Shown: positions 3,350-47,122 of the stretch, piece by piece | How the letters are laid out: every line of letters starts with the position of its first letter | Numbering within the stretch: position 1 is the first letter of the stretch | DNA from: Planctomycetaceae bacterium | GTDB lineage: Bacteria; Planctomycetota; Planctomycetia; Pirellulales; Pirellulaceae | Direction: 5' to 3' | DNA length: 58,113 nucleotides | NCBI GenBank assembly: GCA_005798335.1 | Contig: SYJV01000198.1 | Coordinates: 1 to 58,113, forward strand | Position numbers and translations under genes: made by a program | The notes under the pieces: model-generated | Database searches by the model: none | Told to the model about the DNA's origin: nothing | Seen by the model: only the letters and a program-made list of their open reading frames with translations

Positions 3350-3423
3350 GTAGGTGTGTAATTAGATTACTCATCCCGATTAGTTAATTGTCAAAACTTA
3401 TTGTATTGAAAAAGGTAAGTCGC

Positions 3424-15400: not shown

Positions 15401-18400
15401 GTGCAAACGTCTTCGAAGATAACGAGACTGTCGTAGGTGCCAGTGAAACGGTGCTCGCCAACTTTGCCACGAAAATTTCGGCAGGTCCCGCAACTGCTGT
15501 GGATGAGACTACAGCCGCTGCCACGAAACAAACCGTCAGTTTCACAACGGTTTCCGTGTCCGACCCGTCCTTGTTCCTTGCCGGTGGTCAACCCGCAATC
15601 GCAGCCGATGGTTCTCTGCGCTTCCGAACGTCGCCAGACAAGAGCGGGTCAGCGGTCGTAGTTGTCAAGTTGCTGGACAATGGCCAAGTGCCTACGAATC
15701 CAGTGACGTTGCCGCACGATAACGAGAGTGCCGAGCAGACATTCACCATTTCGCTTCAAGCTATTAACGATGCTCCCGATTTTGTGGTTCCTGCAACCAC
15801 CAGCAGCAATGAAGATCAGGGACTTGTGATTGTACCCAGCTTCGCGACGAACATCATCAAGGGCCCAGCCACTGCAACCGATGAATCTGCGCAGACGGTT
15901 ACATTCACGGTCCAGGCGACCGACCCAACCGCGTTTGCCGTGCAGCCAACGATTGCGGTCGACGGCACATTGCGATATCAGACTGCCAAGGACATCAACT
16001 CCATTGGCAAACAGCTTTCGGTAGCAGTATTCTCCACAGACAGCGGACTGGGAACACCTGCACCAAACACGAACAAATCCGCTACTAAAACGTTCACGAT
16101 TATTGCGGCGCCTATCAATGACCCTCCCGTACTAACAATTCCGAATGTCAGTCCCACGGTTGATGAAGATGCGCCGCTAACGACTATTCCAGGTTTTGCG
16201 ACCAATATTGCTGCGGCCAGTGGCTTGCTCAGTTCTCCGCAGACAGCGATTGATGAAGCCAGCCAGACCTTGAGCATCAACATACTTTCGGTTAGCGCTC
16301 CAGAGCTGTTTGAAACTCTGCCGTCGCTGAGCAGTACCGGCACGTTGACCTTCAAGCCCGCTGTGAATAAAAACGGTAAAGCGGTCGTCATTGTACAAGT
16401 GGCCGACAATGGAGTCGGCGCACCAACTCCAAACGAGAATGTTTCGGCGCGCGCCACCTTTACGATTTCGATCAATGCGATCAACGACGCGCCGCAGTTT
16501 GACATTCCCACCACCTTGACTGTCAACGAAGATCAAGGACTGGTCATTCGCAACAACTTTGCGACGAATATTCGGCGTGGCCCTGTTGGAACTGACGACG
16601 AAAACAGCCAGCTCATTACGTTCAACCTCACGGCGGCCGATCCTACCGCGTTTGACATTCAACCGCGTATCGAAGTGGACGGCACTCTGACATTTACGAC
16701 TGCCGCGAACATCAATTCACTGAACAAGAGTTCACTGGCAGTGCGCGTGCAATTGGTCGACAATGGACTTAACTCGCCGGTGCCAAATTCCAACCAGTCA
16801 ATCGTGAAGACATTTACGCTGACGATCAATCCGGAAAATGATCCGCCCATCGCCGACAGTTTCTCCGTCTCGACGATCGAAGATACGCCGGTCGTGATTC
16901 AGGCGAGCAGCATCCTGGTTGGAGATGCTGGTGGGCCAACGTCCGATGAGCTTGGCCAAACGCTACGAATTAGTCAAGTGGAACCTGTTTCTGCACGCGG
17001 TGGCTCAGTTTCAGTAGTCTCCAATAACGGTACGATCACTTCGATTACCTACACACCGCTAAATAACCTGTTTGGTACGGACACGTTCTTGTACGTTGTG
17101 GCGGATGATGGCAATCCTAGTCGCAGCGGCACAGGGACGATTACGATCAACTTGACTGGTATTAACGATCCACCGCAATTCGTTAAGGGCCCTGACCAAG
17201 TATCTTTGGAAGATGCCGGAGTGGTTTCGGTACCGAACTGGGCGACCAGCATTCTCGCTGGCCCAGTGACGGCAGGTGACGAGAATCAGTCACAGATAGT
17301 TAGCTTCGAATTGGTGGCCGACCAACCAGCATTGTTCGAACAGCAGCCAACGGTTTCGTCCAACGGCACATTGCAATATAAGACCGCCAAGGACGCTAAT
17401 GGTGTCGCCAACATAACGGTTACGGCTGTCGACAATGGTTCGAATGTAGCTCCCAATCGCAATCGTTCGACTCCGGCAACGTTCCGGATTAGCGTTACTC
17501 CGCGCAATGATGCTCCTGCGTTCACGGCTGGCGCTAACGTGAGTGTCGCTGAAGACAGTGCTGCATACTCACAAACCTGGGCCACAAAAATCGTCGCAGC
17601 GTCGGGCTTGCTATCAACACCGCTTACCGCTCAAGATGAAAGTAACCAAACGGTCGGTTTTGAAGTTGCGGCAGACAAGCCCAACTTATTTGCCGTCCAG
17701 CCAGCGATCAATGCTGCTGGATTACTGACGTTCACGGTTGCCCCCAATGCAACCGGAACAGCTATCTTGACAGTCTTGGCACGCGATACAGGCGCCACTG
17801 GCCCCAATGATGAAAATGCTTCGGGAAACGTTCTTCTAACGATCACGATTACGCCGACCAATGATGCGCCCACTGCGAACAACGATACGTTTGCAGCTTC
17901 GGAAAACAATGTATTGCAAATCAACGCTGCCGGACTGTTGGCCAATGATACCGACGTGGATCTGCCGAGCGATCAGATATTTGCTGTAGCGAGCAAGATA
18001 ACCAGCTCTCAAGGTGCAAACGTCAACATTCTGCAAGACGGTTCGTTTTCTTATGACCCAACTCAGGTGCAGGTGCTCCAACGATTGAATGGTACGCAAA
18101 GCGCTATCGACACATTTACGTATCGCATTCGGGACAATGCCAACGTACAAAGTGGACTGGCTACAGTGACCATCAACGTCGCAGGCGCCAATGACGCACC
18201 GACTACCGTCAACGATCGCTTCTCAGTAGGTGTCAGCCAATCTCAGTCGTTGAACATTTTGGCTAATGATACCGACATCGATTCGCCAATCGATGTCCGC
18301 ACAGTCGTCATTGGCAGTCTGCCGACGTTTGGCACAATCACCGTCAACCAAAACGGTACTGTGGATTACGTTCCAAGTGCCGGATTCCGAGGTACGGATT

Positions 18401-31716: not shown

Positions 31717-31746
31717 CTGACCAACTGACGAAGGAATCTTTACAAT
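31717..31746 (+). promoter_or_regulatory. Candidate promoter of the M16/fusion operon
   Basis: CTGACC at 31717-31722 and TACAAT at 31741-31746 are spaced 18 nt. Transcription would start near 31753, after the upstream in-frame ATG at 31745. This agrees with the choice of 31805 as the start. Confidence 0.35.
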
Positions 31747-31804
31747 GGCGGGCAAATTCAGGAATTCTTACTTCGTGATTCTAGAGCCAGTGGAGGATAA
31801 AGAC

Positions 31805-34573
31805 ATGTCGAGCAGGATTGTTGCGTGGAGCTTGGCCGCCGTGTTGGGCTGGTTCGTTCATTTCAACTTGCCCTCAAGAGCACAGGAACCCATGGTTAAG
31901 AAGATGGCTTCGATCGAAGGGATTACCGAATACGAACTTCCCAACGGCGTCCAATTGTTGCTGTTTCCCGATCCAAGTAAATCGCAAGTCACCGTGAACA
32001 TGACCGTCTTTGTGGGTTCACGACACGAAGGCTACGGCGAAGCGGGGATGGCGCACCTGTTGGAACATATGATGTTCAAGGGAACTCCCAGCCATGAAAA
32101 GATCCCCGATGAGATGAAGAATCGCGGTGCGGATTTTAATGGTACCACGTGGTTGGATCGCACGAATTACTATGAAACGTTGCCCGCTACGTCGGACGCG
32201 CAGGCTGCGGAAAATCTCGAATACGCGCTCTCGTTGGAAGCCGACCGGTTGATGAACAGCTACGTGCGCGGCGAGGATCTTGCCTCGGAAATGACCGTCG
32301 TGCGCAACGAATTCGAATCTGGCGAAAATAATCCTCGGCGAGTCTTGATGCAGCGTGTGCAAGCGGTGGCCTACGAATGGCACAACTACGGTCGTTCGAC
32401 CATCGGTAACCGCAGCGATATCGAGCGTGTGCCTATCGATCGGCTGCGCGATTTCTACCGCAAGTTCTACCGGCCCGATAATATCATGTTGGTGGTAGCG
32501 GGCAAGTTCGATCCAGAGAAGTGTTTGGAACTGGTGGCAGAGTACTTTGGTGTCTTGAAAGCGCCCGAGGTTCCACTCGATCGCACTTATACTACTGAGC
32601 CACCACAGGACGGTGAACGCACGGTCGTATTGCGACGCGTCGGGAGCAGCCAGTTAGTGTCGCTGGCCTATCACGTGCCAGCCGGTGGCGATCGCGATTT
32701 CGCAGCGATTGAACTGCTGGGTTACGTGTTCGGTGCCGAACCCAGTGGTCGACTTTACAAAGAACTGGTGATACCCGAAATCGCTGCGAATGCCAGCTCG
32801 TTTGCTTTCGCGCTGCACGACCCAGGTATCGTCATGTTCACTGCTCAAGTCTCCAAGGAAAAGTCCATCGAAGACGCGCGCCAATCCTTGCTGAGCGTCG
32901 TGGAGTTGGTACCCGAAAAACCGATTACTGAAGAAGAACTCGTTCGAGCTCGCACTCAATTTATGAAAGACCGCGAATTGCGCGCGAACGATTCCAAAGA
33001 GATTGCGATCGAACTGAGCGAATGGGCTGCTGAAGGAGATTGGCGACTGTACTTTTTGTTTCGCGACTACATTGAACAGGTCACCGCTGAAGAATGTACT
33101 AAAGCTGCCGCGAAATATTTGGTGCGCAACAATCGGACCGTGGGACTGTTTATTCCCAGCGAAAAAAGCGAGCGCATCGAGATTCCGACGCGTCCAGATC
33201 TAAAGGAGTTGTTGGCGAATTACCAAGGCAGAGGCGAAACTCAGCAGGGCGAGAACTTTGATCCGGATCCGGTTGCGATTGAAAAACGGACCATTCGCGG
33301 CAAGTTATCATCCGGCCTCAAGACTGCGTTTGTTGCCAAGAAAACTCGAGGTCAATCCGTCAGTCTGCAAATTAACTTGCGATATGGAAACGAAGCAGCA
33401 CTGAAGGACTTGGTGACCGCGGCCGAGTTCCTGCCTGAAATGATGATGCGAGGCACGATCAATTTGAATCACGAGCAACTGCAGGATCGATTGGATGAAT
33501 TCCGCGCCAAGGTGGGTGCTGGTGGCACGACTGGATTGTTGCAAGTTTCCGTGGAAACAAAACGAGAGTACTTGGACAAAGTGCTGCCATTGATCGGCGA
33601 AATACTGCGCTCACCTCGACTGGAATCAAGCGAATTAGAAGTGCTGCGCCGCCAATCCATCACGAGTACCGAATCGCAGTTGACCGAACCCCATGCCTTA
33701 GCTGGAAATACACTGCGCCGACTCCAGTCGCCCTATGCGCCCACGGACGTTCGCTATACGCCGACTCTGGAAGAGCGCATTGAGCGTTACAGGTCTGTGT
33801 CTATTGATCAGATTCGACAACTCCATGCGACGATGCTGAGTGGTCAAAATGGTGAAGTTACTGCCGTAGGCGATTTTGATTCCCAGGAGTTGGTGGCGCA
33901 CTGCGAAAAAATCATGGGAGGCTGGACGACCCAAGTTGCTCAGCAGCGCATCACTCAGCCGGCCGTAACCACCGTGGCAGGCGGCTCGCACGAAATCAAC
34001 ACGCCGGACAAAGCCAATGCAGTGCTATACGGCGGCGAGCAAATTGCCATGCGCGACAGCGATCCCGACTATCCGGCATTGTTCATTGGCAACTATATCC
34101 TCGGTGGCGGTTCGCTATCGTCACGCTTGGCGGATCGCATACGCCAGCGTGAAGGGCTTTCCTACGGAGTGGGATCGAGCATCACGGCTCATCCGATCGA
34201 TCAGCGTACCAATTGGACATTGTTTGCCATCACCAACCCAGGAAATCGAGATCGTTTGCTGACCGTGATGCGCGAGGAAATCGAGAAAATTCTCGCCGAG
34301 GGCGTTTCGCAAAGCGAGTTGGACGCAGCCATTCAGGGATACTTGCAGAGCGAACAATTAAGTCGTACTGATGACAGTGGGTTGGCACAGTTGCTTTCTC
34401 AAACCTTGTTCGTCGGTCGCACGTTGGAATTTAACGCTTCGCAGGAAAAGCGTGTCGCCGCTCTAACTCCCGCGCAAGTCAAAGAAGCACTGGTAAAATA
34501 TCTTGACCTCAAGCGGTTACTGTTGGTTACCGCAGGAGATTTCCGTAAGCCCCAGTCGCCTGGTTCCAAATGA
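31805..34573 (+). CDS. Secreted M16-family (pitrilysin/insulinase-like) zinc metalloprotease
   Basis: ATG 31805 has GGAGG at 31792-31796, 8 nt upstream, and opens a signal peptide (MSSRIVAWSLAAVLGWFVHF, then NLPSRAQ); the longer ATG at 31745 has neither. The mature protein of about 895 aa holds two M16 halves. The N-terminal half has the inverted zinc motif HLLEH at residues 84-88 (HLLEHMMFKGT). The third ligand is probably the Glu of SEMTVVRNEFESGEN near 162. The C-terminal half (from ~510) lacks HxxEH but keeps the chamber-closing segment GGGSLSSRLADRIRQREGLS with YGVGSS. Such two-domain enzymes close like a clam to degrade peptides. Exported versions are common in planctomycetes. Its stop overlaps the next start by 4 nt, so both are made together. 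Confidence 0.92.
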   Translation: MSSRIVAWSLAAVLGWFVHFNLPSRAQEPMVKKMASIEGITEYELPNGVQLLLFPDPSKSQVTVNMTVFVGSRHEGYGEAGMAHLLEHMMFKGTPSHEKIPDEMKNRGADFNGTTWLDRTNYYETLPATSDAQAAENLEYALSLEADRLMNSYVRGEDLASEMTVVRNEFESGENNPRRVLMQRVQAVAYEWHNYGRSTIGNRSDIERVPIDRLRDFYRKFYRPDNIMLVVAGKFDPEKCLELVAEYFGVLKAPEVPLDRTYTTEPPQDGERTVVLRRVGSSQLVSLAYHVPAGGDRDFAAIELLGYVFGAEPSGRLYKELVIPEIAANASSFAFALHDPGIVMFTAQVSKEKSIEDARQSLLSVVELVPEKPITEEELVRARTQFMKDRELRANDSKEIAIELSEWAAEGDWRLYFLFRDYIEQVTAEECTKAAAKYLVRNNRTVGLFIPSEKSERIEIPTRPDLKELLANYQGRGETQQGENFDPDPVAIEKRTIRGKLSSGLKTAFVAKKTRGQSVSLQINLRYGNEAALKDLVTAAEFLPEMMMRGTINLNHEQLQDRLDEFRAKVGAGGTTGLLQVSVETKREYLDKVLPLIGEILRSPRLESSELEVLRRQSITSTESQLTEPHALAGNTLRRLQSPYAPTDVRYTPTLEERIERYRSVSIDQIRQLHATMLSGQNGEVTAVGDFDSQELVAHCEKIMGGWTTQVAQQRITQPAVTTVAGGSHEINTPDKANAVLYGGEQIAMRDSDPDYPALFIGNYILGGGSLSSRLADRIRQREGLSYGVGSSITAHPIDQRTNWTLFAITNPGNRDRLLTVMREEIEKILAEGVSQSELDAAIQGYLQSEQLSRTDDSGLAQLLSQTLFVGRTLEFNASQEKRVAALTPAQVKEALVKYLDLKRLLLVTAGDFRKPQSPGSK

Positions 34574-37500
34574 ACCAAAAAACGAGCTCTGCCATGACGC
34601 GATATCGAATCATCTTGCTTGCCGCCGTTGTGTGTCTAATTGGCTCGGCGGTGTCACAAGAGTTGTGTGCAGATGAAGAGCTAGCTGGACTAAATTCCAG
34701 ATTGCGCGCCGCGATCGCCCGGTCGCTGCCCAAACTGGAGGCGGGTTCCGTGGGCTCGGCCAATGAGCGAGTGTGTTTCACTTGCCATAACCAAGCCTTG
34801 CCCGTGTTCACGATGGTCGAAGCCAAACGCCGAGGATTCAAAGTCGCTGAGACGAATTTGGCTCGGCAGATCGATCATGCCTACGAACATCTCAAGCGTG
34901 GCTTGGTTAACTACCGTCAAGCCAAAGGCCAAGGTGGCGGAGTGCTTACGGCAGGATACGCGATGTGGACGCTCGAAGAGGGCGGACGCGCTGCGGACGA
35001 AGTGACCGAAGCAGTAAATCACTACTTACTGGAAATGCAACAAGATTTGCCACATTGGCGCCACCGGGGAACTCGTCCGCCGACCTCCGGCAGCGACTAT
35101 ACGGCGACGTACGTGGCGCTGCGCGCCTTGTATTATTTTGGTACCGATGCGCAAACAAATCTGTTTGCTCAGCGGCGCCAGAAAATCGCCAAATGGTTGG
35201 AATCAGAGAATCCACCAGAAACTGAAGACTTAGTTTTTCGACTTGGCTCGCTCGGTTATGCTGGCTCGTCGCCTGAGGCAACTGCTAATGCCGCAACGGA
35301 ACTATTGAACAAACAACGTCCCGATGGCGGTTGGGGACAAAAAGACGATATGGTCAGCGATGCCTACGCGACCAGTACAGCACTAGCAAACTTATTGCAT
35401 CATGGCAAAATCTCAGCGACGGAATCGAGAATTCGCAAAGGCTTGGATTACTTGCTGGATCACCAACTTAACGACGGCACCTGGCATGTGGTCACTCGTG
35501 CCAAGCCGATTCAAGAGTATTTTGAGTCTGGATTTCCGCACGGCAAAGACCAGTTCATTTCCATCTCGGCCACTGCTTGGGCCGCGCTGGCACTGCTGTA
35601 CGCGTTGCCAGCGGAACCCACTGCTTCCGTCGGATCTTTAGCACTTAACCAAGACAGCACAGCGAGTGTCGATAAGAATAAGGATTCAGACAAGCCCTTC
35701 GATGTCGTGCTGCGTGGCGGGCGAGTGGTCGATGGAACTGGCGCGCCTTGGTATATCGCCGATGTCGGAATTCGCTCTGGAAAGATTGCCAAGATCGGCC
35801 GTGTATCGGCTGATGCTGGCCAAATCACAATCGATGCAACAGGCTTAGTTGTAGCACCAGGCTTTGTCGACATGATGGGGCAGTCTGCTTCGCCGATGGT
35901 CGATGATCCGAAGTCTGCGCTGAATCTGCTGACTCAGGGTATTACGACGATCAATGCTGGCGAAGGCGCATCTGCTGCGCCGTTGAGTCCGATCGATGGC
36001 AAGCGGCTCGGATATACGACGATGTCGGAGTACTTTGCGCTACTCGATATGCAAGGCTTGCCCATTAACGTGGCGCAGACAGTGGGCCACACGCAAGTAC
36101 GTCGGATCGTACTGGGCGACGTAGACCGACGGCCTAGTGATGAAGAACTGAATCAAATGAAAACGCTGGTGCGCGAAGCGATGGAGGCCGGCGCGATTGG
36201 CGTTTCTACTGCGCTAATTTATCCACCAGCAGTGTTCGCCAGCACGCGCGAGATCGCCGCTTTGGCACAAGTTGCTGGGCAATACGGTGGACGCTATTAC
36301 ACCCATATGCGCAACGAAGGAGATCAATTGCTCGAGGCGATCGATGAAGCCCTGCAGATCGGCCAGGAGGGCAAAACGCCTGTCCACATATTTCACCTCA
36401 AGACGGCCGGCCAACAGAACTGGGGCAAGATGCAACTGGCAATCGCCAAAATCAAGTCCGCGCGGGCCGCTGGTGAGCAAGTAACCGCTGACATATATCC
36501 GTATATCAACAACGGCCTGGAGATTTCTGCGCTCATTCATCCGCGCCATTTCAGCCAAGGGCGCGAACAGCTTCGCGGTCGCCTGGATGATGATGCGCTG
36601 CGTAGTGAAATTCGCAAGGAAATGGAGACCATCGGTGGTTGGGAGAACTGGTACCGTCACGTCAATCACGATTGGCAGCGCGTAATCATCGGTCAGACTA
36701 ACGAGCGGCGTTATCGCGACACGGTCGGTCAGAGTGTGGCGGCAATCGCGGCAGCTCACCGAGAAGATCCGTGGGACACATTTTTTAATCTGGTGAAAGC
36801 GGGTTCTTTTGCACTGCCACAGAGCATGACGGATGCCAACAAGATCCTCGCGATGCAGCAGGAATTTATCTCGTTTTGTACCGACGTCGGGCCCGCCGGA
36901 GGTGAACGCCATGCCTCGCATCCACGCGCCTATGGAGCGTTTCCTCGCCTGTTCGCCAAGTATGTGCGCGAACTAGGCGCGATTTCGCTCGAACGCGCGG
37001 TCGCGCAAGCATCGTCGGTTGCGGCCAACGATATCCTGGCGTTCGACCGTGGGCGAATCGCGGAAGGCTTGGCGGCGGATGTTGTCGTATTTGACTATCA
37101 ACGTATGACCGACAACGCGACATTCACTGAACCAACAGCGCTTTCCACTGGGGTAAAGCACGTGTTGGTCAATGGGGTGTTAGTTTTGCATGACGGAGAA
37201 TTTACAGGCAAGCGGCCAGGTCGAGTATTGCGCGGACCGGGATTTAACCCCGAGCGCGCACCGTCGGCCATTTCCACCGGCCAAAGTGTTCCGAGCTTGT
37301 CTGACTTCGACACAGCGATCCGTCAATTCATGCAACACCATCGCGTCCCCGGGGCTGCACTTGCGATCACTCACAAAGGCCGACTAGTCTACTCGCGCGG
37401 TTTTGGTTACGCCGACATCGCGACGAAGGAGCCTGTCACGCCAACTAGTTTGTTTCGAATCGCCAGCGTTTCGAAGCCGATCACAGCAGTCGCCATCTTG

Positions 37501-38442
37501 CAGATGATCGAACAAGGCAAACTCAAGCTGAACGATCGAGTATTTTCCATACTCGACTTCGAAGCCGAGATTCAGGCCGCAGGAGAATCATTCGATAAAC
37601 GTTTGCGGGACGTAACCGTTCGACATCTGCTCGAACATCGCGGTGGCTGGGATCGAGACAAGTCGTTTGACGCGATGTTTCAATCAGTTCGCTTTGCCGA
37701 GCAAATGAACTCACCACCACCGGCTGGTCAGCGCGACGTAATCGTTTCCATGTTGCGCGTGCCATTGGATTTCGATCCCGGTCAGCGATATGCCTATTCC
37801 AATTTCGGCTATTGCCTGCTCGGTCGCATAATAGAGAAAATTTCCGGTCAACGTTACGAAGCGTATGTACAAGAAAAAGTATTGGCGCCAGCGGGAATCA
37901 ATTCCATGCGCATCGGTGCCACGCGCATCGAAGGACGTCAGTCTGGCGAAGTTCGCTACTACGCTCCAGGCAGAGGCAAGTCCGTTTTCCAAGCTGATCT
38001 GGGTGAAGATGTTTCGTGGTGTTATGGAGCTTGGCATTTAGAGGCTATGGATTCGCACGGTGGCTGGATCGCGTCGGCGGATGATTTAGCCAAGCTTGCG
38101 ATAGCTTTGGATGATCCGCACAAATCACCAATTTTGTCGAACGCCAGTTTCGAGCTGATGCATCAGCGACCGCCTGGAGCCGCAGGGACAAATGAGGATG
38201 GTACTCCCAAGCCCACGTTTTATTCGCTCGGCTGGACTAACCAGGAAATTGAACCCGGAAAGATCAATAGCTGGCATACGGGATCGCTTCCTGGTACCGC
38301 AACCATCTTGCTTCGTCGCCACGACGGTTGTAACTTGATCGCCCTGTTGAACACCCGCGTTAGTCCCGAAGTGGAACACCTTGGCCGCGCCATCCAATCC
38401 GTGCTCAACCAAATCGCCGATTCAATTAAGCAGTGGCCGTAG
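34570..38442 (+). CDS. Three-domain fusion: cyclase-like helical repeats, D-aminoacylase-like amidohydrolase, beta-lactamase-like serine hydrolase
   Basis: ATG 34570 overlaps the M16 stop as ATGA; MTRYR at 34594 is an alternative giving a cleaner signal peptide (IILLAAVVCLIGSAVS). Residues ~40-350 contain squalene-cyclase/prenyltransferase-type helical repeats (QRPDGGWGQKDDMVSDAYAT, LNDGTWHV) and a CFTCH motif at 69-73 that matches the haem c pattern CxxCH. Residues ~375-900 are an N-acyl-D-amino-acid deacylase-type amidohydrolase (FDVVLRGGRVVDGTGAPW, YYTHMRNEGDQL, HIFHLK, ASHPRAYGAFPR). The usual HxH after 'GFVD' is replaced by MMGQS at ~432. Residues ~905-1290 are a class C/penicillin-binding-type serine hydrolase with S966-VS-K969, Y1076-SN and H1236-TG. 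It is probably periplasmic. With the coupled protease it may degrade peptides containing D-residues or cell-wall peptides; this is inference. Confidence 0.85.
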   Translation: MNQKTSSAMTRYRIILLAAVVCLIGSAVSQELCADEELAGLNSRLRAAIARSLPKLEAGSVGSANERVCFTCHNQALPVFTMVEAKRRGFKVAETNLARQIDHAYEHLKRGLVNYRQAKGQGGGVLTAGYAMWTLEEGGRAADEVTEAVNHYLLEMQQDLPHWRHRGTRPPTSGSDYTATYVALRALYYFGTDAQTNLFAQRRQKIAKWLESENPPETEDLVFRLGSLGYAGSSPEATANAATELLNKQRPDGGWGQKDDMVSDAYATSTALANLLHHGKISATESRIRKGLDYLLDHQLNDGTWHVVTRAKPIQEYFESGFPHGKDQFISISATAWAALALLYALPAEPTASVGSLALNQDSTASVDKNKDSDKPFDVVLRGGRVVDGTGAPWYIADVGIRSGKIAKIGRVSADAGQITIDATGLVVAPGFVDMMGQSASPMVDDPKSALNLLTQGITTINAGEGASAAPLSPIDGKRLGYTTMSEYFALLDMQGLPINVAQTVGHTQVRRIVLGDVDRRPSDEELNQMKTLVREAMEAGAIGVSTALIYPPAVFASTREIAALAQVAGQYGGRYYTHMRNEGDQLLEAIDEALQIGQEGKTPVHIFHLKTAGQQNWGKMQLAIAKIKSARAAGEQVTADIYPYINNGLEISALIHPRHFSQGREQLRGRLDDDALRSEIRKEMETIGGWENWYRHVNHDWQRVIIGQTNERRYRDTVGQSVAAIAAAHREDPWDTFFNLVKAGSFALPQSMTDANKILAMQQEFISFCTDVGPAGGERHASHPRAYGAFPRLFAKYVRELGAISLERAVAQASSVAANDILAFDRGRIAEGLAADVVVFDYQRMTDNATFTEPTALSTGVKHVLVNGVLVLHDGEFTGKRPGRVLRGPGFNPERAPSAISTGQSVPSLSDFDTAIRQFMQHHRVPGAALAITHKGRLVYSRGFGYADIATKEPVTPTSLFRIASVSKPITAVAILQMIEQGKLKLNDRVFSILDFEAEIQAAGESFDKRLRDVTVRHLLEHRGGWDRDKSFDAMFQSVRFAEQMNSPPPAGQRDVIVSMLRVPLDFDPGQRYAYSNFGYCLLGRIIEKISGQRYEAYVQEKVLAPAGINSMRIGATRIEGRQSGEVRYYAPGRGKSVFQADLGEDVSWCYGAWHLEAMDSHGGWIASADDLAKLAIALDDPHKSPILSNASFELMHQRPPGAAGTNEDGTPKPTFYSLGWTNQEIEPGKINSWHTGSLPGTATILLRRHDGCNLIALLNTRVSPEVEHLGRAIQSVLNQIADSIKQWP

Positions 38443-39990: not shown

Positions 39991-41406
39991 TTAGTTTTTT
40001 ACCGCACATCTTTTTGCCGGCTTGTAATTGAATTTCGTTTCGCGAATGGGTTTGCTGAAAATCATCGTCCAAAGCGCAACGACAATTGTTGTCACGAAAT
40101 TCGTTAGTGGATGTGTAGATTGCTCGGCTGGATCGCCAGCGACTGAGTCTAACGATTGATCAGAAGGCTCGCCTTGGCTTGACTCAGTTTCGACACCGCC
40201 TTGGGCATCGGCGCGCAGGAAAATTTGCAGCGCGGTTATGGGACTAGCGTCTGCCGACAACCAATTCTCAGACCGAACGCTCTGCGGTCGCTGATTAGCT
40301 TGATTGAGCGTCAATTCAACCATGCCTTCCGGTAGCGGCAACGCTCCTATTAAACGCGCTACTGAACCAGGAGACGAAATCTCTCTGCGGTGTTTAATGG
40401 GTTCGCTGAAATCGTTCTGACCGTAACTCCAGGTGACGTCTAACTTGGTTCGTGACTGGTCAACAACTTCCTGGCGGGACTCAAAAGTCAGCGGAAGCAT
40501 CCCTGCTAACACATCTGCCGTCCCAAGAGAAATTTGCGTATCATTCCCTTGGTTCGGTGTAACGAGAGTTGCATTGAACCACGAGCTTTCGCCGGTCACT
40601 GGCTCCTGCTGCTGACCAGTTTCCGTGGTTATCGCTCGCTGAGAATGTGGTTCAACGTCAAGAATTGACGCATCCCGCGTTGCGCGATGCTGCTGTACGC
40701 CGGTAGCATTATCGAAGCTGGACGGTGTATCGGCATTCTGCGGCAAGACGTTGGCGGTGAACCTGGGCATCTCGTGGGACTGTGCGTCACGCAAACTAAT
40801 AACGCTGGCGGTTGGATTGGTGTCGTACCTTGAAACGCTATCTACCAGCAAGTTTGTGCCGCTGGAAATTGGCAACAGAATCGATTGCGGAGCCTTGGGG
40901 AAGACGACCAACGTAAAACGCGGAACTGCAGCATCGAGATTTACTTGCGCCGCAGCGGAATTGGTTCGCGGAATGATGATGGCGAACGACTCGGTCAAGC
41001 CAACGCCAGTGGCGAGATTTGGCACCGTTTGCGCACTATCCGCAATCAAACTGTCGGGACGCCGCGGACCGTGCACGACGATCACCATCGGCAGTGGCCC
41101 GAGCGGTTCGGTGCTACGTACTTCCGGAAGTGGCTGGCCACCGATGCGATCGACGGTCGGAGTCGTGTGCAGAGAAAATCTCAAACTGGTCAAATCGTTT
41201 GCGCCTGCCGTTGCTTGGCTGGTATGAAACGCAGCAACATCGCTCGATTGTTCAAGACGATGGTATCGAACGCTGTTATCGGAAAGCTCCCATAGGTCTA
41301 CGCCGGCAATGTCTGCCGCCATCAGTGAGCGCGATTCCATTTCTTCAAGTCGTAGAGCGCGTCGACATCCATGCTTCGCCACGCTGGAATACCAGGAGCG
41401 TTTCAT
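39991..41406 (-). CDS. Hypothetical exported protein with the planctomycete ESR-LMA N-terminal motif, third gene of the sigma-kinase operon
   Basis: The 471-aa protein begins with a basic stretch and LRLEEMESRSLMAADIAG, nearly the same motif as in the giant protein at 3424 (LLENFESRTLMAFDA). The middle is Ser/Thr/Gln-rich with few charged clusters and short beta-type stretches such as PLPMVIVVHGPRRP and FAIIIPRTNS. I recognise no enzymatic domain. Near the C-terminus an acidic region (AQGGVETESSQGEPSDQSLD) is followed by one hydrophobic helix (FVTTIVVALWTMIFS) and a basic tail, as for a membrane-anchored protein with its bulk outside. Its ATG overlaps the kinase stop by 4 nt, so its synthesis is tied to the kinase and sigma factor. 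It may be an envelope target or sensor for them. Confidence 0.7.
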   Translation of the reverse strand: MKRSWYSSVAKHGCRRALRLEEMESRSLMAADIAGVDLWELSDNSVRYHRLEQSSDVAAFHTSQATAGANDLTSLRFSLHTTPTVDRIGGQPLPEVRSTEPLGPLPMVIVVHGPRRPDSLIADSAQTVPNLATGVGLTESFAIIIPRTNSAAAQVNLDAAVPRFTLVVFPKAPQSILLPISSGTNLLVDSVSRYDTNPTASVISLRDAQSHEMPRFTANVLPQNADTPSSFDNATGVQQHRATRDASILDVEPHSQRAITTETGQQQEPVTGESSWFNATLVTPNQGNDTQISLGTADVLAGMLPLTFESRQEVVDQSRTKLDVTWSYGQNDFSEPIKHRREISSPGSVARLIGALPLPEGMVELTLNQANQRPQSVRSENWLSADASPITALQIFLRADAQGGVETESSQGEPSDQSLDSVAGDPAEQSTHPLTNFVTTIVVALWTMIFSKPIRETKFNYKPAKRCAVKN

Positions 41407-44081
41407 TTCGAGTCCCTCGACGAAAAAGATAAGCGAACTTGTTCGAGCGATCGGCGATAAGGTTTTGAATCTGGCTCAAGTTCAACTGCAATTGTCTGAT
41501 GTTTTAGGGCTCGTGTAAACATGTCACGAGAATCTTGTCGCAAATTCATCTTATCTAGCAAAATTCCCAAGTTATTCTGAATTCCAGCCAAATGGCTCGC
41601 CGCTTCTGCATTGCTGGTGTCGCTTTGGAATTCGGCGTCGGCAATCTTTTCTGCTCGCCGCAAGGCTATTTGGGCCGTCGAATAGTTGGTCGCCGAAGTT
41701 GCCACCATACCCAAATTGTTTAGTGCGATCGCTAATCGCGTGCGCAGTTGGACTAAGCTGGGCGAGCTTTTTGAAGCCGCCTCTAATAGGTGAACAACTT
41801 CGCGATATTCCTCAATCGCCTCGGTCTCGTGACCCGCCCGCCAATGAAGCGCTGCGATATTATTGCGTGCGGTCGCGAGCCGCTCAGTAGTGCGCCAATC
41901 CGAATTTGCTTGTTCAACAGCGAGTTGACGCAACTTGACGACCTGGGCGGAAACTTCCAATGCCGCTGGCGACTGCCCCTGCGCATCGAGTATGATCGCC
42001 AGATTATTGAGCGAATCCGTCAAGTCGCTTGAAAAGGCCCAGCTTTCTGGCTGAAACGCCGCGCGGTCTGATGAGTCGAGGATTTGGACGGCTCGCCGAA
42101 CAGCTTCCAAAGCGTCCTTGGTGCGTCCCAACCGAAGCATAACAACACCGAGATTGTTGTGCGTCGTCGCCAGTGCATCGGGAGGCAAATGGTCCAAAGT
42201 AATACTTTGCAGCAGTTGTAACGATTCCGTCTGATCGCCATGTTCGCAATGCAACATCGCCAGCTCATTAACGGCCATGGTCCACACATGGTAAGCCCGA
42301 TGGGAAGCGTTAGGTGCACACGCTTTTAGAGCTTCGATCGCTACTCGATAGGCGCTTGCCGAATCCTCGAAATTACCGAACTGACGAACCACACGTGCGA
42401 CTTGCAATTTCGTTTGAGCGACTTCGTCGTCCAGTGCAGCGTCGTGGCTCGCGTTAGAAATGAACTCCTCGTAGTAACTGAGCGTCTGCGCGAGAACCTC
42501 GCGACGCAGCGGTTGTGCTTCGGGAATCTCTGCCAGTCGATTTGCAACACGGGTACCCAGCGAGTCGACCGCGGCCCGTGCATGGAGATACATTTGGTCA
42601 GCCGCCAATACGGCTTGCTCGGTGCGCCGTTTCTCTGCGGTTAACCTGGCAGCGTGTGCCAGTGCGCCGATCAAGCCTACGCTGAGAACTATCACGATGG
42701 ATAGCAGTGCCGCGGCATTGCGAGACGCCCATGCCAGGGCTTGTTCGGGCAGACCGCGCCGTTTTGCCAAAATTGGCTGGCCGCTGAGGAAGCGTCCCAA
42801 ATCATCGGCCAAGGCCGCCGCCGACTGATAGCGCGCCGACTGATCGGAGCGCATTGCCTTTTGAATAATCGTTTGCAAATCTCTAGGCAAACTCAGTACG
42901 ATCTTTCGCGGTGAAGTCGGTTCGCCACGGCAGATGGCTTGAATCAAATCGGGATAGCCTTCGTTAGGAAAAGCCGGCATCAACGTACAAAGTTCGTACA
43001 AAGTCGCCCCCAGTGCATAGACGTCGGTGCGAGCGTCGACCAGCGAACTTCTTCCGGCAGCCTGCTCGGGACTCATGTAGCGAACCGTACCGATCAATTC
43101 ACCGGAGCGTGTAAGATGACTTTGATAGTCCAGCCTAGCCAGGCCAAAGTCGGTCACTTTTAAGTTGCCCTGACGGTCGACGATCAGGTTGGACGGTTTT
43201 AGGTCTCGATGTACAACGCCGGACAAATGAACCGCGTGCATGGCTTCTGCTGCGGCTTGAATCAAACCTGCCGCTTTGCGAAAACGGTTCGGTCCACCAA
43301 ACAGGCTCGATTCAATCGCCTGGCGTGACGCGTCTTCCGCTGGAACAATTGGATGCATCGGCAACGACTGGTTCCGATCGTTTGTCCGAAAGGTGGTCGG
43401 GTCGGGTGGAGCATCTGGCTTGGCCCAATCGATATGCCGATCCAACGAATATCCGTCGATCCATTGCATGACGTAGAAATAGGTACCCGCTTCATTTCCT
43501 ACGTCGAATACTTTAACAACGCCCGGATGGTCCAGCGCCGCGGTAATATGCGCTTCGCGTTGGAATCGGGCAACGCGATCCTCATCAAGGGCACCGCTGG
43601 ATGATAGCACCTTGATCGCGACGCACCGCCCGAGCGATTTCTGAGTCGCTCGGTAGACCACGCCCATCGATCCGCGACCGATCTCAGTTCCAATTTCGTA
43701 ATCGGCTAGCTGTCGGGGAGCAGCGATGATCATCGATTCGGCCGAGACACTGTGTGGTATCAAGTTTGCCAGCAATCGCAAATCGGCAAAGTACTCGGCG
43801 AGTATCTGTGCCAAGTCAGGATTATCGGACAGAATCTGCGATTGGGATATCGGACGCCCTTCCTCTCGGGCAATCAAAAATCCATCTAAGATCGATGCCA
43901 GCCGCTGTTGGTCATGCTCGTTCAGATCGAGGCGCTCGACCAGCGATTCATCGACCAGCGATTCATCGACCAGCGATTCATCGACCAGCGATTCATCGAC
44001 CAGCGATTCATCGATCAGCGATTCATCGATCAGCGATTCATCCGCTGAATTCAGGCGTTCTCGAGAATGCCAGCCACTCAT
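41403..44081 (-). CDS. Membrane Ser/Thr protein kinase with TPR C-terminus and pentapeptide repeat N-terminus
   Basis: The 892-aa protein starts with seven tandem DESL[VI] pentapeptides (residues ~14-48). A Hanks-type kinase domain (~128-430) follows: glycine loop GRGSMG 135-140, catalytic K157, HRDLKPSN 291-298, DFG 311-313 and SPE 337-339. All catalytic residues are present, so it should be active. A transmembrane helix lies at ~457-476 (ALLSIVIVLSVGLIGALAHA). From ~480 to the end there are TPR-like repeats (TTHNNLGVVMLRLGRTKDAL, ALNNLGMVATSATNYSTAQI), predicted outside the membrane. It overlaps the upstream sigma factor gene and the downstream gene by 4 nt each (ATGA), a coupled three-gene operon. 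ECF-sigma plus kinase pairs are known in planctomycetes. The kinase is probably the regulator of the sigma factor. Confidence 0.92.
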   Translation of the reverse strand: MSGWHSRERLNSADESLIDESLIDESLVDESLVDESLVDESLVDESLVERLDLNEHDQQRLASILDGFLIAREEGRPISQSQILSDNPDLAQILAEYFADLRLLANLIPHSVSAESMIIAAPRQLADYEIGTEIGRGSMGVVYRATQKSLGRCVAIKVLSSSGALDEDRVARFQREAHITAALDHPGVVKVFDVGNEAGTYFYVMQWIDGYSLDRHIDWAKPDAPPDPTTFRTNDRNQSLPMHPIVPAEDASRQAIESSLFGGPNRFRKAAGLIQAAAEAMHAVHLSGVVHRDLKPSNLIVDRQGNLKVTDFGLARLDYQSHLTRSGELIGTVRYMSPEQAAGRSSLVDARTDVYALGATLYELCTLMPAFPNEGYPDLIQAICRGEPTSPRKIVLSLPRDLQTIIQKAMRSDQSARYQSAAALADDLGRFLSGQPILAKRRGLPEQALAWASRNAAALLSIVIVLSVGLIGALAHAARLTAEKRRTEQAVLAADQMYLHARAAVDSLGTRVANRLAEIPEAQPLRREVLAQTLSYYEEFISNASHDAALDDEVAQTKLQVARVVRQFGNFEDSASAYRVAIEALKACAPNASHRAYHVWTMAVNELAMLHCEHGDQTESLQLLQSITLDHLPPDALATTHNNLGVVMLRLGRTKDALEAVRRAVQILDSSDRAAFQPESWAFSSDLTDSLNNLAIILDAQGQSPAALEVSAQVVKLRQLAVEQANSDWRTTERLATARNNIAALHWRAGHETEAIEEYREVVHLLEAASKSSPSLVQLRTRLAIALNNLGMVATSATNYSTAQIALRRAEKIADAEFQSDTSNAEAASHLAGIQNNLGILLDKMNLRQDSRDMFTRALKHQTIAVELEPDSKPYRRSLEQVRLSFSSRDSK
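43936..44040. repeat. Coding tandem repeat, seven 15-bp units in the kinase gene
   Basis: Seven head-to-tail 15-bp units: five identical TCGACCAGCGATTCA followed by two TCGATCAGCGATTCA (43936-44040). On the minus strand they encode DESLV x5 and DESLI x2. Because the unit is a multiple of three, changes in number keep the frame. The near-perfect identity implies recent expansion by slippage. Confidence 0.95.
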
Positions 44082-44725
44082 GGTATTTCACTCTGATCGT
44101 TCAGTGCTCGCAGTCGACGAATGGCCCGCAGCCAGAGCAATCGCGCGGCTGTAGACGAGCGCCCCATCTGCTGGGCAATCGCTTCGAACCGCATCGAATT
44201 GAGATTGCGCATCACGATGACATCTCGATAGTCATTCGGCAGCTTGGCTAGCAAATCGTAAATCCGCACCAATTCCTCTTCACGCATGACGATCGAACTG
44301 GCGGTAAGCGTAGCTGCTTGAAGGATATTGGAAATAGCGCAACAACTGGACTCAATTTGGCTCGCGACCGATTGCAACGATATCTCTTTTCGCAGGTCCC
44401 GTTTTTCTGCTTTGAGGTGCCGTTCGACCGTTCGAAATAGGCTGCGCGCTAAGATCGTGCGTAACCAAGCTGAGAATTGTCCGGCACTCTCGCCACGGAA
44501 TTCCGCAAAATCGCGATGTGCGGCTAACATCGTTTCCTGCACAATATCTGATGGGCTCATCCGCAACGACAATCGGCGACTGACCTGGGCCGCTGCCAGA
44601 ACCCGCAAGTAATTGCGATAGGACTCCAGCAATTCCCCTAACGCTTCAGAGGTTCCTGAACGCGCAAGCGGAAAGAGAGTTGTGAACGGCCGGCGATCGT
44701 CGTGCGAATTGACTTCAGTGACCAT
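44078..44725 (-). CDS. ECF-type RNA polymerase sigma factor
   Basis: The 215-aa protein has sigma region 2 at ~25-100, with SLRMSPSDIVQETMLAAHRD and FSAWLRTILARSLFRTVERH. A linker is followed by region 4 at ~145-205: LLAKLPNDYRDVIVMRNLNS then MRFEAIAQQMGRSSTAARLL, the helix-turn-helix that reads the -35 element. It fits the Rhodopirellula/Verrucomicrobium-type ECF group, often encoded next to Ser/Thr kinases instead of anti-sigma factors. No anti-sigma factor is nearby. The gene is first in a coupled operon with the kinase (4-nt overlap) and an exported protein. The promoter of the operon is not obvious in the 550-nt upstream space, which could mean it is recognised by this sigma factor itself. 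Confidence 0.9.
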   Translation of the reverse strand: MVTEVNSHDDRRPFTTLFPLARSGTSEALGELLESYRNYLRVLAAAQVSRRLSLRMSPSDIVQETMLAAHRDFAEFRGESAGQFSAWLRTILARSLFRTVERHLKAEKRDLRKEISLQSVASQIESSCCAISNILQAATLTASSIVMREEELVRIYDLLAKLPNDYRDVIVMRNLNSMRFEAIAQQMGRSSTAARLLWLRAIRRLRALNDQSEIP

Positions 44726-45276: not shown

Positions 45277-45867
45277 ATGTCCATTGCAAAGACAGTTTTT
45301 ACGACTGGTGAAGCGGCTAAGATCTGCAAGGTCAGCCAGCAGACAATTATTCGCTGTTTCGACAATGGCTCGCTGAAGGGATTTCGAGTCCCAGGTAGCC
45401 GTTTCAGACGCATTCCGCGCGATCAACTGTTCGCTTTCATGAAGGACAACGGAATCCCAACCGATGCCCTGGAAAATGGAAGAAAGAAGTTGTTGATCGT
45501 GGACGATGATCAAGATCTGGTCGAGTTGATGTCAGAGGCCTTTGAACGGGACGGCAGGTTCGATATTCGCACCGCGAATAACGGATTTGATGCCGGGATG
45601 CAGGTTAAAGAATTTCGTCCTGACATGGTGGTCTTAGACGTAATGCTACCCGACATCAACGGCAAGGAAGTCTGTCAACGAGTCCGCAGTGACTCGACGC
45701 TGGATTCCGTTAAGATCATCTGTATTTCGGGGATGATCGAGCAAGATCGCGTGGGTGATTTGCGAGCTGCTGGCGCAGACGATTTTCTGCAAAAGCCGTT
45801 TACGGTAGATCGTTTGGTGGATCGAGTGTGCGATCTGCTCGACATCGAAAAACCCGTGTCGGCCTGA
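45277..45867 (+). CDS. Response regulator: excisionase/MerR-type HTH plus receiver domain
   Basis: The 196-aa protein has an N-terminal helix-turn-helix of the excisionase/MerR-like kind (residues ~7-55: TTGEAAKICKVSQQTIIRCF, then GSLKGFRVPGSRFRRI). A receiver domain follows (~70-190) with acidic pocket DDD 76-78, phospho-acceptor D121 (VVLDVMLPDINGKEV), and the conserved Ser/Lys positions near ICISGM and DFLQKPF. The order is reversed compared with usual response regulators (DNA-binding first). It probably binds DNA when phosphorylated by the histidine kinase 40 nt downstream. GAGGAAGGA lies 12 nt before the start. A long structured leader and a strong promoter precede it. Confidence 0.9.
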   Translation: MSIAKTVFTTGEAAKICKVSQQTIIRCFDNGSLKGFRVPGSRFRRIPRDQLFAFMKDNGIPTDALENGRKKLLIVDDDQDLVELMSEAFERDGRFDIRTANNGFDAGMQVKEFRPDMVVLDVMLPDINGKEVCQRVRSDSTLDSVKIICISGMIEQDRVGDLRAAGADDFLQKPFTVDRLVDRVCDLLDIEKPVSA

Positions 45868-45907
45868 TGCACGACCCTGACGAGCGTACCATGACAGTGT
45901 TTGCGAA

Positions 45908-47122
45908 ATGAATGTGTCGTTTTCGGACGACACAATTGGTCGTCTCGCAGACTGGTTGCTGTCCTGCGCCGCAAATCCATCCGCAACTGGAAACTCTCGA
46001 CCGCAAGAGTTTGGGGGGATCGTAACGCAACTTGAGCGAAGCGATCCTCAGTTCCAAGCTTGGCTTAATTGCCAGGCAAGTGAGCCAGGGGACCAACTGG
46101 ATTCGCACGGCAATTGGCCTTCGGACAATGCACCGCACTCAACCGACGACGTACAGCGTGGCTGGTTGATTCGCCGTTTGTTGTGCGATACCAGTTGGGC
46201 AGCAAACTGCGCTGCTTGGCAAGTGAAGCCCGTTGACGATCCAAAGTCCATAGGTGACCAACGAGCCATTTTGGAGTTGAGGCTTTGGCATACTCTGCTG
46301 GTTTACAGCCGACTGGACGCGCTCCAATCGACGTTTGTCAAAGAACTCGATCGATCGACTCGCGAGACTCTGTACCACATGGCGTATGGGCTCAGCCACG
46401 AGATTAACAATCCGCTTGCAAATATTGCCACGCGGGCAAACGTATTGGCAGCACAGGAGTCTGTTACTCATCGTCGTCAAATGCTTGTTTCCATAGTGGA
46501 TCAAGCGATGCGCGGCAGTGAAATGCTCGCCGATCTCATGCTGGTCGCTCGACCACCACGCTTGACATTTGAACCGTTGGATTTGACGAAACTGTTGCGC
46601 AATATCATCGACAAGGCCAATCCATGGTCGCAATCGATGAATGTTCGCATAGTGGCTGACAAATCGATCGAAATCGAAGCCATCGTCCACGCCGATTGCG
46701 CAGCCTTGACCGAAGCGTTATGGTGCGTGCTGCGCAATGGAATCGAAGCCACCTATTTTTCTGCTCACGCGAAAACCGCCGCCAACGATCAAGCGGCTCC
46801 AGAGGATAACGTACGAATTTCAGTACGAGTTTCCAAAAGCAGTAACCGACATTTCATAAGTACTCAAATCAAAGACGATGGCAATGGGCTGTCCGCTGAA
46901 GCTCTCAAGAATTGCCTCAATCCATTCTATTCTGGCCGAGAAGCGGGACGTGGCTTGGGCGTGGGGCTTGCGAAGGTCAAACGCATCGTGGAACTACATC
47001 ATGGAACGATTCAAATTGCTAACGCTCCTAGCGGAGGCTGCATCGCGGCTATCATCTTACCCTTGGTAGCAGAATCAGTTGGTAAAGCATGTAGGGATAG
47101 TAACGCAGGGCCAGAAGTCTAA
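45908..47122 (+). CDS. Sensor histidine kinase, cytoplasmic
   Basis: The 404-aa protein lacks membrane segments. The N-terminal ~140 residues match no domain I know. The dimerisation box is at ~155-175, with phospho-acceptor H164 in MAYGLSHEINNPLANIATRA. The ATPase domain runs from ~245 to 385 with the N-box WCVLRNGIEATYFS, G1 KDDGNGLS and G2 GRGLGVGLAKVKRIVELHHG. It should phosphorylate the upstream HTH-receiver protein, as the two genes are 40 nt apart on the same strand. No sensory PAS or GAF domain is recognised; input may come through protein contact with the N-terminal region. It converges with the minus-strand gene at 47193. Confidence 0.9.
   Translation: MNVSFSDDTIGRLADWLLSCAANPSATGNSRPQEFGGIVTQLERSDPQFQAWLNCQASEPGDQLDSHGNWPSDNAPHSTDDVQRGWLIRRLLCDTSWAANCAAWQVKPVDDPKSIGDQRAILELRLWHTLLVYSRLDALQSTFVKELDRSTRETLYHMAYGLSHEINNPLANIATRANVLAAQESVTHRRQMLVSIVDQAMRGSEMLADLMLVARPPRLTFEPLDLTKLLRNIIDKANPWSQSMNVRIVADKSIEIEAIVHADCAALTEALWCVLRNGIEATYFSAHAKTAANDQAAPEDNVRISVRVSKSSNRHFISTQIKDDGNGLSAEALKNCLNPFYSGREAGRGLGVGLAKVKRIVELHHGTIQIANAPSGGCIAAIILPLVAESVGKACRDSNAGPEV

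Follow-up and report, generated by a model that had tools for sequence, protein, structure and literature searches.

The window analyzed here, a 58,113-nucleotide stretch of Planctomycetaceae DNA (contig SYJV01000198.1, one of the contigs of an 8.46-Mb genome, whose protein families also point to a planctomycete), carries on its minus strand three consecutive genes, hereafter the trio. They encode an extracytoplasmic function (ECF) sigma factor, a membrane Ser/Thr kinase with tetratricopeptide repeats (TPRs), and a protein that combines the LEPR motif with a membrane helix of its own. The locus raises the question of whether this third gene is a constant member of a sigma-kinase unit and, if so, what the unit would sense and control. 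The original prediction, made from the letters of the DNA, described a three-gene unit joined by ATGA overlaps, and the exact coordinates bear this out at both junctions, while family matches and hydropathy confirm the identities given to the three genes. Its linkage of the third gene to the other two also stood. Its statement that the overlaps force equal translation was too strong, since ATGA permits coupling and does not fix the ratio, and it missed the predicted regulon described below.

A three-gene order kept among relatives

Relatives of the locus were collected from the genome_contigs set by a scan seeded with an alignment of the sigma factor alone, which kept the best 80 of 107 relatives; one of its two patterns required [SNG][PS]SD in the sigma factor. 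The titles of 77 kept loci name planctomycetes and three say "bacterium" only, and the organisms include Rhodopirellula, Stieleria, Aporhodopirellula, Lacipirellula, and Adhaeretor. Adding the window and a pair of paralogues from its genome gives the set of 83 trio loci, among which six have no kinase frame before the contig end, three a cut kinase, and two a cut third region, leaving 72 readable past the kinase. The third gene directly follows the kinase in 70 of these 72 loci, window included, and all 70 directly following third proteins carry the LEPR motif, 68 by a widened pattern and two by eye (a first, narrower pattern had missed many of them). In L207, a LEPR-bearing, anchored third protein is encoded about 400 bp beyond the kinase, and L230 holds sigma and kinase genes without a third gene. 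Within the genus, all three genes occur in order in 9 of 15 genomes, two third genes being cut by contig ends and one lying about 400 bp from the kinase. The spacing is -4, as in the window, for 45 of 73 sigma-kinase and 29 of 70 kinase-third junctions. Elsewhere in the genus, nine further sigma-kinase loci are followed by a gene on the same strand, and in only one of them is it a LEPR gene (L162, 1,335 residues, 156 bp on). Because the gene order recurs in nearly every readable locus, the trio is neither a local arrangement nor a product of chance. A third gene unlinked in relatives, the outcome named beforehand as fatal to the idea, was looked for and not encountered.

Homologue searches had suggested an orphan third protein. 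Searched at full length, it matched 2 of 15 genus genomes (one being the query) with little beyond the motif of about 40 residues, 7 of 199 family genomes (the query and six motif-only matches), and nothing in genome_contigs. Gene order ruled the orphan status out.

The history of the trio was approached through sigma phylogeny. In a first tree, the 83 trio sigma factors formed one side of a branch with support 95/84, found in 94% of bootstrap trees; this tree left out eight non-trio rows (L134, L136, L137, L157, L159, L161, L162, and L167). In both trees the trio label covers loci cut before the third gene as well as L230. Two results weigh against one clean clade. With the eight rows included, the resulting 102-row tree requires two changes for the 83 trio rows, which split off cleanly in 16% of bootstrap trees. 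The trio rows and the long-branched L159, which is placed basally next to L214, form a group of 84 rows (91/81) that excludes the remaining 18 non-trio rows. L157 pairs an SPSD sigma factor with a kinase and has no same-strand gene next. The trio loci include close relatives, and their counts are not counts of independent events. The claim of one clean clade was dropped after the fuller tree, and we claim clustering only. A single gain of the third gene is nonetheless likely from these sequence comparisons, and the conclusion on gene order, that the operon is kept across a planctomycete group around Pirellulales, is independent of the tree. As a separate observation, L159 (G007:C455) is a sigma-kinase pair near the trio sigma factors with a transposase-like gene at the third position, where a third gene has perhaps been displaced or lost.

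Table 1. Coordinates of the trio and of its predicted parts in the window
Feature	Position	Strand	Remarks
Sigma gene	44078..44725	-	ECF sigma factor, Sig-70_plancto1 subfamily, 215 aa; TIGR02984, Sigma70_r2 and r4_2 matches
Region 2.2 motif S57-P58-S59-D60, in place of DAED	44546..44557	-	S59 codon 44549-44551
Sigma-kinase ATGA stop/start overlap	44078..44081	-	TCAT on plus strand
Kinase gene	41403..44081	-	Membrane Ser/Thr kinase with TPRs, 892 aa; Pkinase 5e-41, TPR_12 1.4e-15
Kinase domain, residues ~130-425	42807..43694	-	Pfam PF00069/PF07714
Kinase transmembrane helix, residues 457-475	42657..42713	-	19-residue hydropathy 2.63; charge +3 before, +1 after
TPRs, predicted extracytoplasmic, residues 605-768	41778..42269	-	Pfam TPR families
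Kinase-third ATGA stop/start overlap	41403..41406	-	TCAT on plus strand
Third gene	39991..41406	-	LEPR-motif protein, C-terminally membrane-anchored, 471 aa
LEPR/Planc_extracel export motif (RRALRLEEMESRSLMAADI)	41308..41364	-	PF07595 match under cut-off
C-terminal membrane helix of third protein, residues ~434-450	40057..40107	-	17-residue hydropathy 1.84; tail +6, preceding net -4

The sigma factor, the kinase, and the anchored third protein

The sigma factor belongs to TIGR02984 (Sig-70_plancto1), scoring 208.9 bits against a curated cut-off of 183.75. In the window's genome alone, one sigma family has 55 listed matches, most of them under its cut-off. Canonical ECF factors carry DAED in region 2.2. 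Of the three acids in this motif, the window's factor has lost two, and it keeps Asp60. Among 81 trio loci, position 1 is acidic in none and Ser occupies position 3 in 80 (SPSD in 43, NPSD in 19, SASD in 7, STSD in 4, and others in 8), and S59 and D60 are invariant in alignment A1 (16/16). Non-trio sigma factors with a readable motif have, by eye, Asp at position 1 in 13 of 18 cases, those without it being L133, L138, L157, L162, and L164. Ser at position 3 is therefore common in the subfamily, and a missing first acid is characteristic of the trio, though not confined to it. In the ECF43 factors EcfP (STTA) and EcfK (QATE), the third letter of this motif is the phospho-Thr according to section 3.4 of PMC8999054 and to the relevant part of PMC13147305, and Ser59 of the window lies in the same register; the account of ECF59 in PMC8103513 gives a serine the part of the phospho-Thr.

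As the original prediction had stated, no anti-sigma factor adjoins the trio. Its 3′ neighbor encodes a BrkB/YihY membrane protein and its divergent 5′ neighbors a response regulator and a histidine kinase, and neither the third protein nor the three neighboring genes scanned gave an anti-sigma match among the Pfam and NCBIfam rows. The adjacent anti-sigma protein with a cytoplasmic sigma-binding domain that marks membrane anti-sigma systems is thus absent at the window locus. The locus instead combines loss of DAED acids and a Ser/Thr at position 3, with the Asp at position 4 kept, with an adjacent Ser/Thr kinase, as in the ECF43-like mode, and by analogy the kinase may phosphorylate the sigma factor. 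Two points temper this analogy. The scan patterns partly selected the region 2.2 motif, a caveat for the motif counts given above, and EcfK T51A keeps its function in the part of PMC13147305 that describes it, so that Ser59 may not be the only site.

The kinase has the VAIK, HRDLKPSN, and DFG motifs in the window, all 73 complete trio kinases are catalytically intact and possess a membrane helix, and TPR_12 was found in each of the 26 of these 73 that were given to Pfam. Flanking charges suggest that the kinase domain lies inside and the TPRs outside. The kinase might nonetheless act on other targets while the sigma factor is controlled by its level alone, through autoregulation. The retained Asp60 fits this alternative, as does the remark in section 3.4 of PMC8999054 that non-ECF43 groups may work differently. 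We regard it as unlikely, given that a kinase follows the sigma factor in every trio locus with enough DNA, that the two frames so often share four nucleotides, and that two of the three acidic positions are lost. Separately, the kinase N terminus contains an in-frame 15-bp tandem repeat (43936-44042, 7.1 copies, 98% matches) encoding DESLV/DESLI units, the length of which is possibly variable.

The window's third protein matches PF07595 (Planc_extracel) over residues 15-33 with E=0.0088 and 16.2 bits, under the gathering cut-off of 25.5, and Planc_extracel matches at E≤0.1 were obtained for 18 of the 36 third proteins scanned, nothing else being recurrent in Pfam. This N-terminal motif, RRLxxExLExRxLLA, is thought to be a novel export signal in the description given in PMC8567305. 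At the other end of the protein, 55 of 66 complete third proteins have a C-terminal hydrophobic helix (17-residue mean of at least 1.3), compared with 4 of 47 other LEPR open reading frames (ORFs) from these loci (Fisher p=4e-16). The ORFs of the comparison were gathered mechanically, and a few may be spurious. At a threshold of at least 1.6, the counts are 39 of 66 and 0 of 47. The tail beyond the helix measures about 10-45 residues in most third proteins and is not conserved in sequence. The charges around the helix lead to a predicted N-out/C-in topology.

Between these two elements, the sequence varies widely. Identity to the window's third protein is 12-20% (35 others), compared with 29-37% for the kinases (25 others) and 39-48% for the genus sigma factors (15 others), ranges that come from different sets of loci. 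The only BLAST relative of the window's protein among third proteins is that of L172 (28% over 110 residues). The idea that it is a domain homologue of a 16-member Rhodopirellula-type cluster was abandoned, as a profile grown from the cluster reached 17 of the 66 third proteins and not that of the window. Structure models yielded no confident fold: the one for the L198 protein, a member of the cluster (alignment A2), had a mean predicted local distance difference test (pLDDT) score of 41.9 with 79 of 436 residues at 50 or above, that of the window a mean of 27.0 with no residue at 50, and both were unusable. From its sequence features, the third protein seems to form a class of its own, tethered in the membrane and bearing an export motif.

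Its fixed place in the operon and charge-predicted topology, together with matrixin genes in 14 of the 83 loci, are what would be expected if the third protein replaced an anti-sigma factor, its basic cytoplasmic tail holding the sigma factor or the kinase until a signal such as cleavage of the ectodomain releases it. The short and unconserved tail leaves no room for a known anti-sigma domain, however, and 11 of the 66 third proteins have no clear C-terminal helix. Hence, we find this alternative very improbable.

A two-box motif and a predicted local regulon

The sigma upstream regions were considered for a shared promoter. The pair GTGAC-15-CGGCC occurs in 14 of 82 of them, while the best pair in three shuffles reaches 4. 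A two-box profile trained on the same upstreams, consisting of GCGTGACA, 13 or 14 bases, and TCGGCCT, scores at least 12 in 37 of the 82 against 0.8 expected. Over the 82 trio loci, 63 matches score at least 15 versus 10.7 expected from shuffles, and these lie before sigma genes (33), before LEPR genes (12), or elsewhere (18). Sites before LEPR genes are outside the training set of the profile, and 12 of the 30 non-sigma matches hold this position compared with 120 of 6,000 random positions (2%; p=2.5e-13). In L130, a paralogous trio of the window's genome, the motif scores 20.7 before the sigma gene and 20.6 before a LEPR neighbor.

Eleven of the 12 motif-preceded LEPR genes were scanned with Pfam and comprise three haem peroxidases with dockerin, one leishmanolysin, two matrixins, two beta-propellers, one DUF5122 propeller, and two dockerin proteins. 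More generally, 26 of 83 trio loci contain a gene for a peroxidase (10), a matrixin (14), or a beta-propeller (4), two of these loci holding two, and such genes are present in none of 21 loci around other genus sigma genes, most of which have a kinase; the DNA compared amounts to 292 kb for the other-sigma set against 1,313 kb for the trio loci. Four of the 18 matches elsewhere precede small secreted Gly-rich proteins.

Two families of neighbors deserve description in their own right. The small Gly-rich proteins have a signal-peptide-like start, AQC(S/R)GG..GGG, and Gln-rich stretches, and recur near trio loci; the motif-preceded ones are L174:9012, L200:7040, L212:12011, and L236:4674, and others are found in L183, L191, L198, L202, and L208. 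Matrixin genes lie on the same strand as the sigma gene and upstream of it in L170, L173, L191, L194, L198, L203, L207, L229, and L236. All nine bear a LEPR-type motif by pattern, six have dockerin and/or EF-hands, and that of L170 sits 13 bp from the sigma frame.

Genome-wide, a strict pattern gave 22 matches in 19 genomes against 5 for the control, of which nine lie 37-161 bp before a trio sigma gene and one before a LEPR gene beside a trio. A genome-wide regulon drawn from one-mismatch scans was rejected as too noisy to define. Control of all LEPR genes by the sigma factor was likewise not supported, since 37 LEPR-gene loci (31 from the window's genome and 6 from relatives, with a few duplicates, two being trio third genes) score at most 8.7 in the up to 600 bp before the motif.

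Several observations count against the motif as the promoter of this sigma family, most directly in the window. The best score upstream of the window's sigma gene is 3.8, no copy scores 7 or more within 2.6 kb of the sigma upstream, and the search of the window turned up no LEPR gene preceded by the motif. Beyond it, 45 of the 82 sigma upstreams score under 12, which would mean that specificity differs by clade or that promoters lie further up. Across 9 genomes, a Rhodopirellula-type pattern matched no more often (5) than its control (5), although three of its five matches are inside trio loci, and one-mismatch counts in 8 genomes were 166 versus 76 for a reversed-pattern control. One might therefore take the motif as belonging to some other sigma factor or to an unrelated regulator, a reading that its absence before the window's sigma gene and about half of the others, as well as relaxed genome-wide counts barely or not above controls, would favor. 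Set against this are the two boxes with near-fixed spacing, the nine strict copies close to sigma starts, and the way the motif follows trio loci and scores no higher than 8.7 at the 37 other LEPR-gene loci, and we judge such an unrelated site not likely. The regulon, made up of the operon itself and neighboring secreted LEPR proteins, is predicted for the wider group and not for the window's copy, because that copy is without the motif.

Some sites and genes close to the window's trio can be added. A single window site above 13, inside the third gene, was taken as chance. In L170 and L171, the window's nearest relatives, a motif variant scoring 9.3 precedes a LEPR gene, a matrixin gene in L170, where there is also a strong site (18.7) farther upstream that no identified gene follows. 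The window itself has, 20 kb from the trio, a giant LEPR frame (3388-19281, +, 5,297 residues) with matrixin (M10), PPC, cadherin-like repeats, and dockerin, which is a candidate surface protease or adhesin; no motif site above 11.0 was found near its start.

Taken together, we consider it fairly probable that the trio is a kinase-activated membrane-to-transcription switch coupling an envelope condition to local secreted proteins in one operon. Operon architecture, conservation, and the motif with its placement are observed directly. In the proposed sequence of events, an envelope signal would be received by the extracytoplasmic TPR half of the kinase together with the LEPR protein, whose C-terminal helix anchors it in that membrane too. 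The cytoplasmic kinase, by analogy with EcfP/PknT and EcfK/PknS, would then phosphorylate region 2.2 of the sigma factor, most likely at Ser59, where the phosphate would supply the missing negative charge and allow binding to RNA polymerase without any anti-sigma factor. In many relatives outside the window, the active sigma factor is predicted to read the two-box motif before its own operon, before neighboring secreted LEPR genes (matrixin/leishmanolysin metalloproteases, haem peroxidases, beta-propellers, and dockerin proteins), and before the gene of the small Gly-rich protein.

The part played by the third protein within this switch can be seen in two ways. It may be an effector only, a surface protein tethered to the membrane and expressed along with its regulator, while the kinase senses by its TPRs alone. 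Its hypervariability outside motif and helix, as in surface decoration, and the output-like appearance of the other LEPR genes near the trio suit this possibility, which we rate as less likely than not. Unlike those outputs, however, the third gene lies inside the sigma-kinase operon, frequently with the ATGA overlap, no third gene is among those preceded by the 12 LEPR-gene motif sites, and its product bears an inner-membrane-type anchor that is rare in other LEPR ORFs. Alternatively, and more doubtfully, the anchored protein could be an obligatory input subunit, with the TPR half reading its export, folding, or cutting, so that the cell would gauge its own LEPR export or surface layer and answer with local LEPR enzymes (proteases and peroxidases). 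If this were true, a metalloprotease of the regulon could close a feedback loop by cutting the probably disordered ectodomain.

Further genes of the window include the divergent pair adjoining the trio (45277-47122, +), whose response regulator has an N-terminal HTH_17, and a 1,290-residue frame (34570-38442, +) in which an amidohydrolase domain is joined with a PF00144 domain of the beta-lactamase family and which overlaps the preceding M16 peptidase gene (31745-34573) by 4 nucleotides.

Relation to known systems

The trio is best read as a variant of kinase-activated ECF systems. Like the ECF43 pairs EcfP/PknT of Vibrio parahaemolyticus and EcfK/PknS of Xanthomonas citri, as far as these are described in the sections cited above, it has an adjacent Ser/Thr kinase and no anti-sigma factor, lost acids in region 2.2, and a Ser/Thr at the phospho-position, and EcfK also keeps one acid (Glu). 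The trio sigma factors are nevertheless not ECF43 proper, from which motif and family set them apart: in place of a (Q/S)TTA-type motif with a phospho-Thr, they belong to TIGR02984, have Ser for Thr in SPSD, and keep one Asp. The kinase differs by its predicted extracytoplasmic TPRs, and the added LEPR membrane protein and predicted local regulon of secreted LEPR proteins are further differences. Closer in taxonomy are ECF59, ECF61, ECF62, and ECF217, planctomycete sigma factors beside Ser/Thr kinases for which control by phosphorylation is predicted, and to which we liken the trio by their published description. ECF62 is exemplified there by a Rhodopirellula sallentina protein, and this species holds the trio loci L190, L216, and L249. 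The trio has a third partner, and the passages describing these groups mention none.

On the side of secretion, the third proteins share the N-terminal export motif of Planc_extracel/LEPR-XLL proteins (PF07595, in its available description) and, unlike most other LEPR ORFs examined, also possess a C-terminal membrane helix that a basic tail follows; their genes belong to a sigma-kinase operon. Dockerin-bound planctomycete peptidases have been proposed to form a "planctosome" in PMC6461901, and no such regulator appears in the portion of that account dealing with it. Neither the anchored third partner nor the linked secreted regulon was met in the papers that could be searched, and an earlier mention may exist. 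The pairing of sigma factor and kinase is thus already known from ECF43 and predicted for planctomycete groups, whereas the anchored third protein and the linked regulon appear to be new. The module ties together a sigma factor, a kinase, and the LEPR motif, a suspected export signal. Its predictions, namely Ser59 as the phospho-site, a single promoter sequence, a small number of target genes, and a third partner that could be deleted, make the function of a group of planctomycete sigma-kinase pairs directly testable in culturable Rhodopirellula/Stieleria relatives. A parallel in logic is the control of PEP-CTERM surface proteins by PrsK/PrsR/PrsT in the part of Haft 2006 (PMC1569441) devoted to it, where dedicated regulators and a DNA motif before genes with a sorting signal are likewise found. 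That system unites sigma-54 with a two-component pair in proteobacteria, whereas the trio would join an ECF sigma factor and a Ser/Thr kinase to the LEPR signal, with its predicted targets adjoining.

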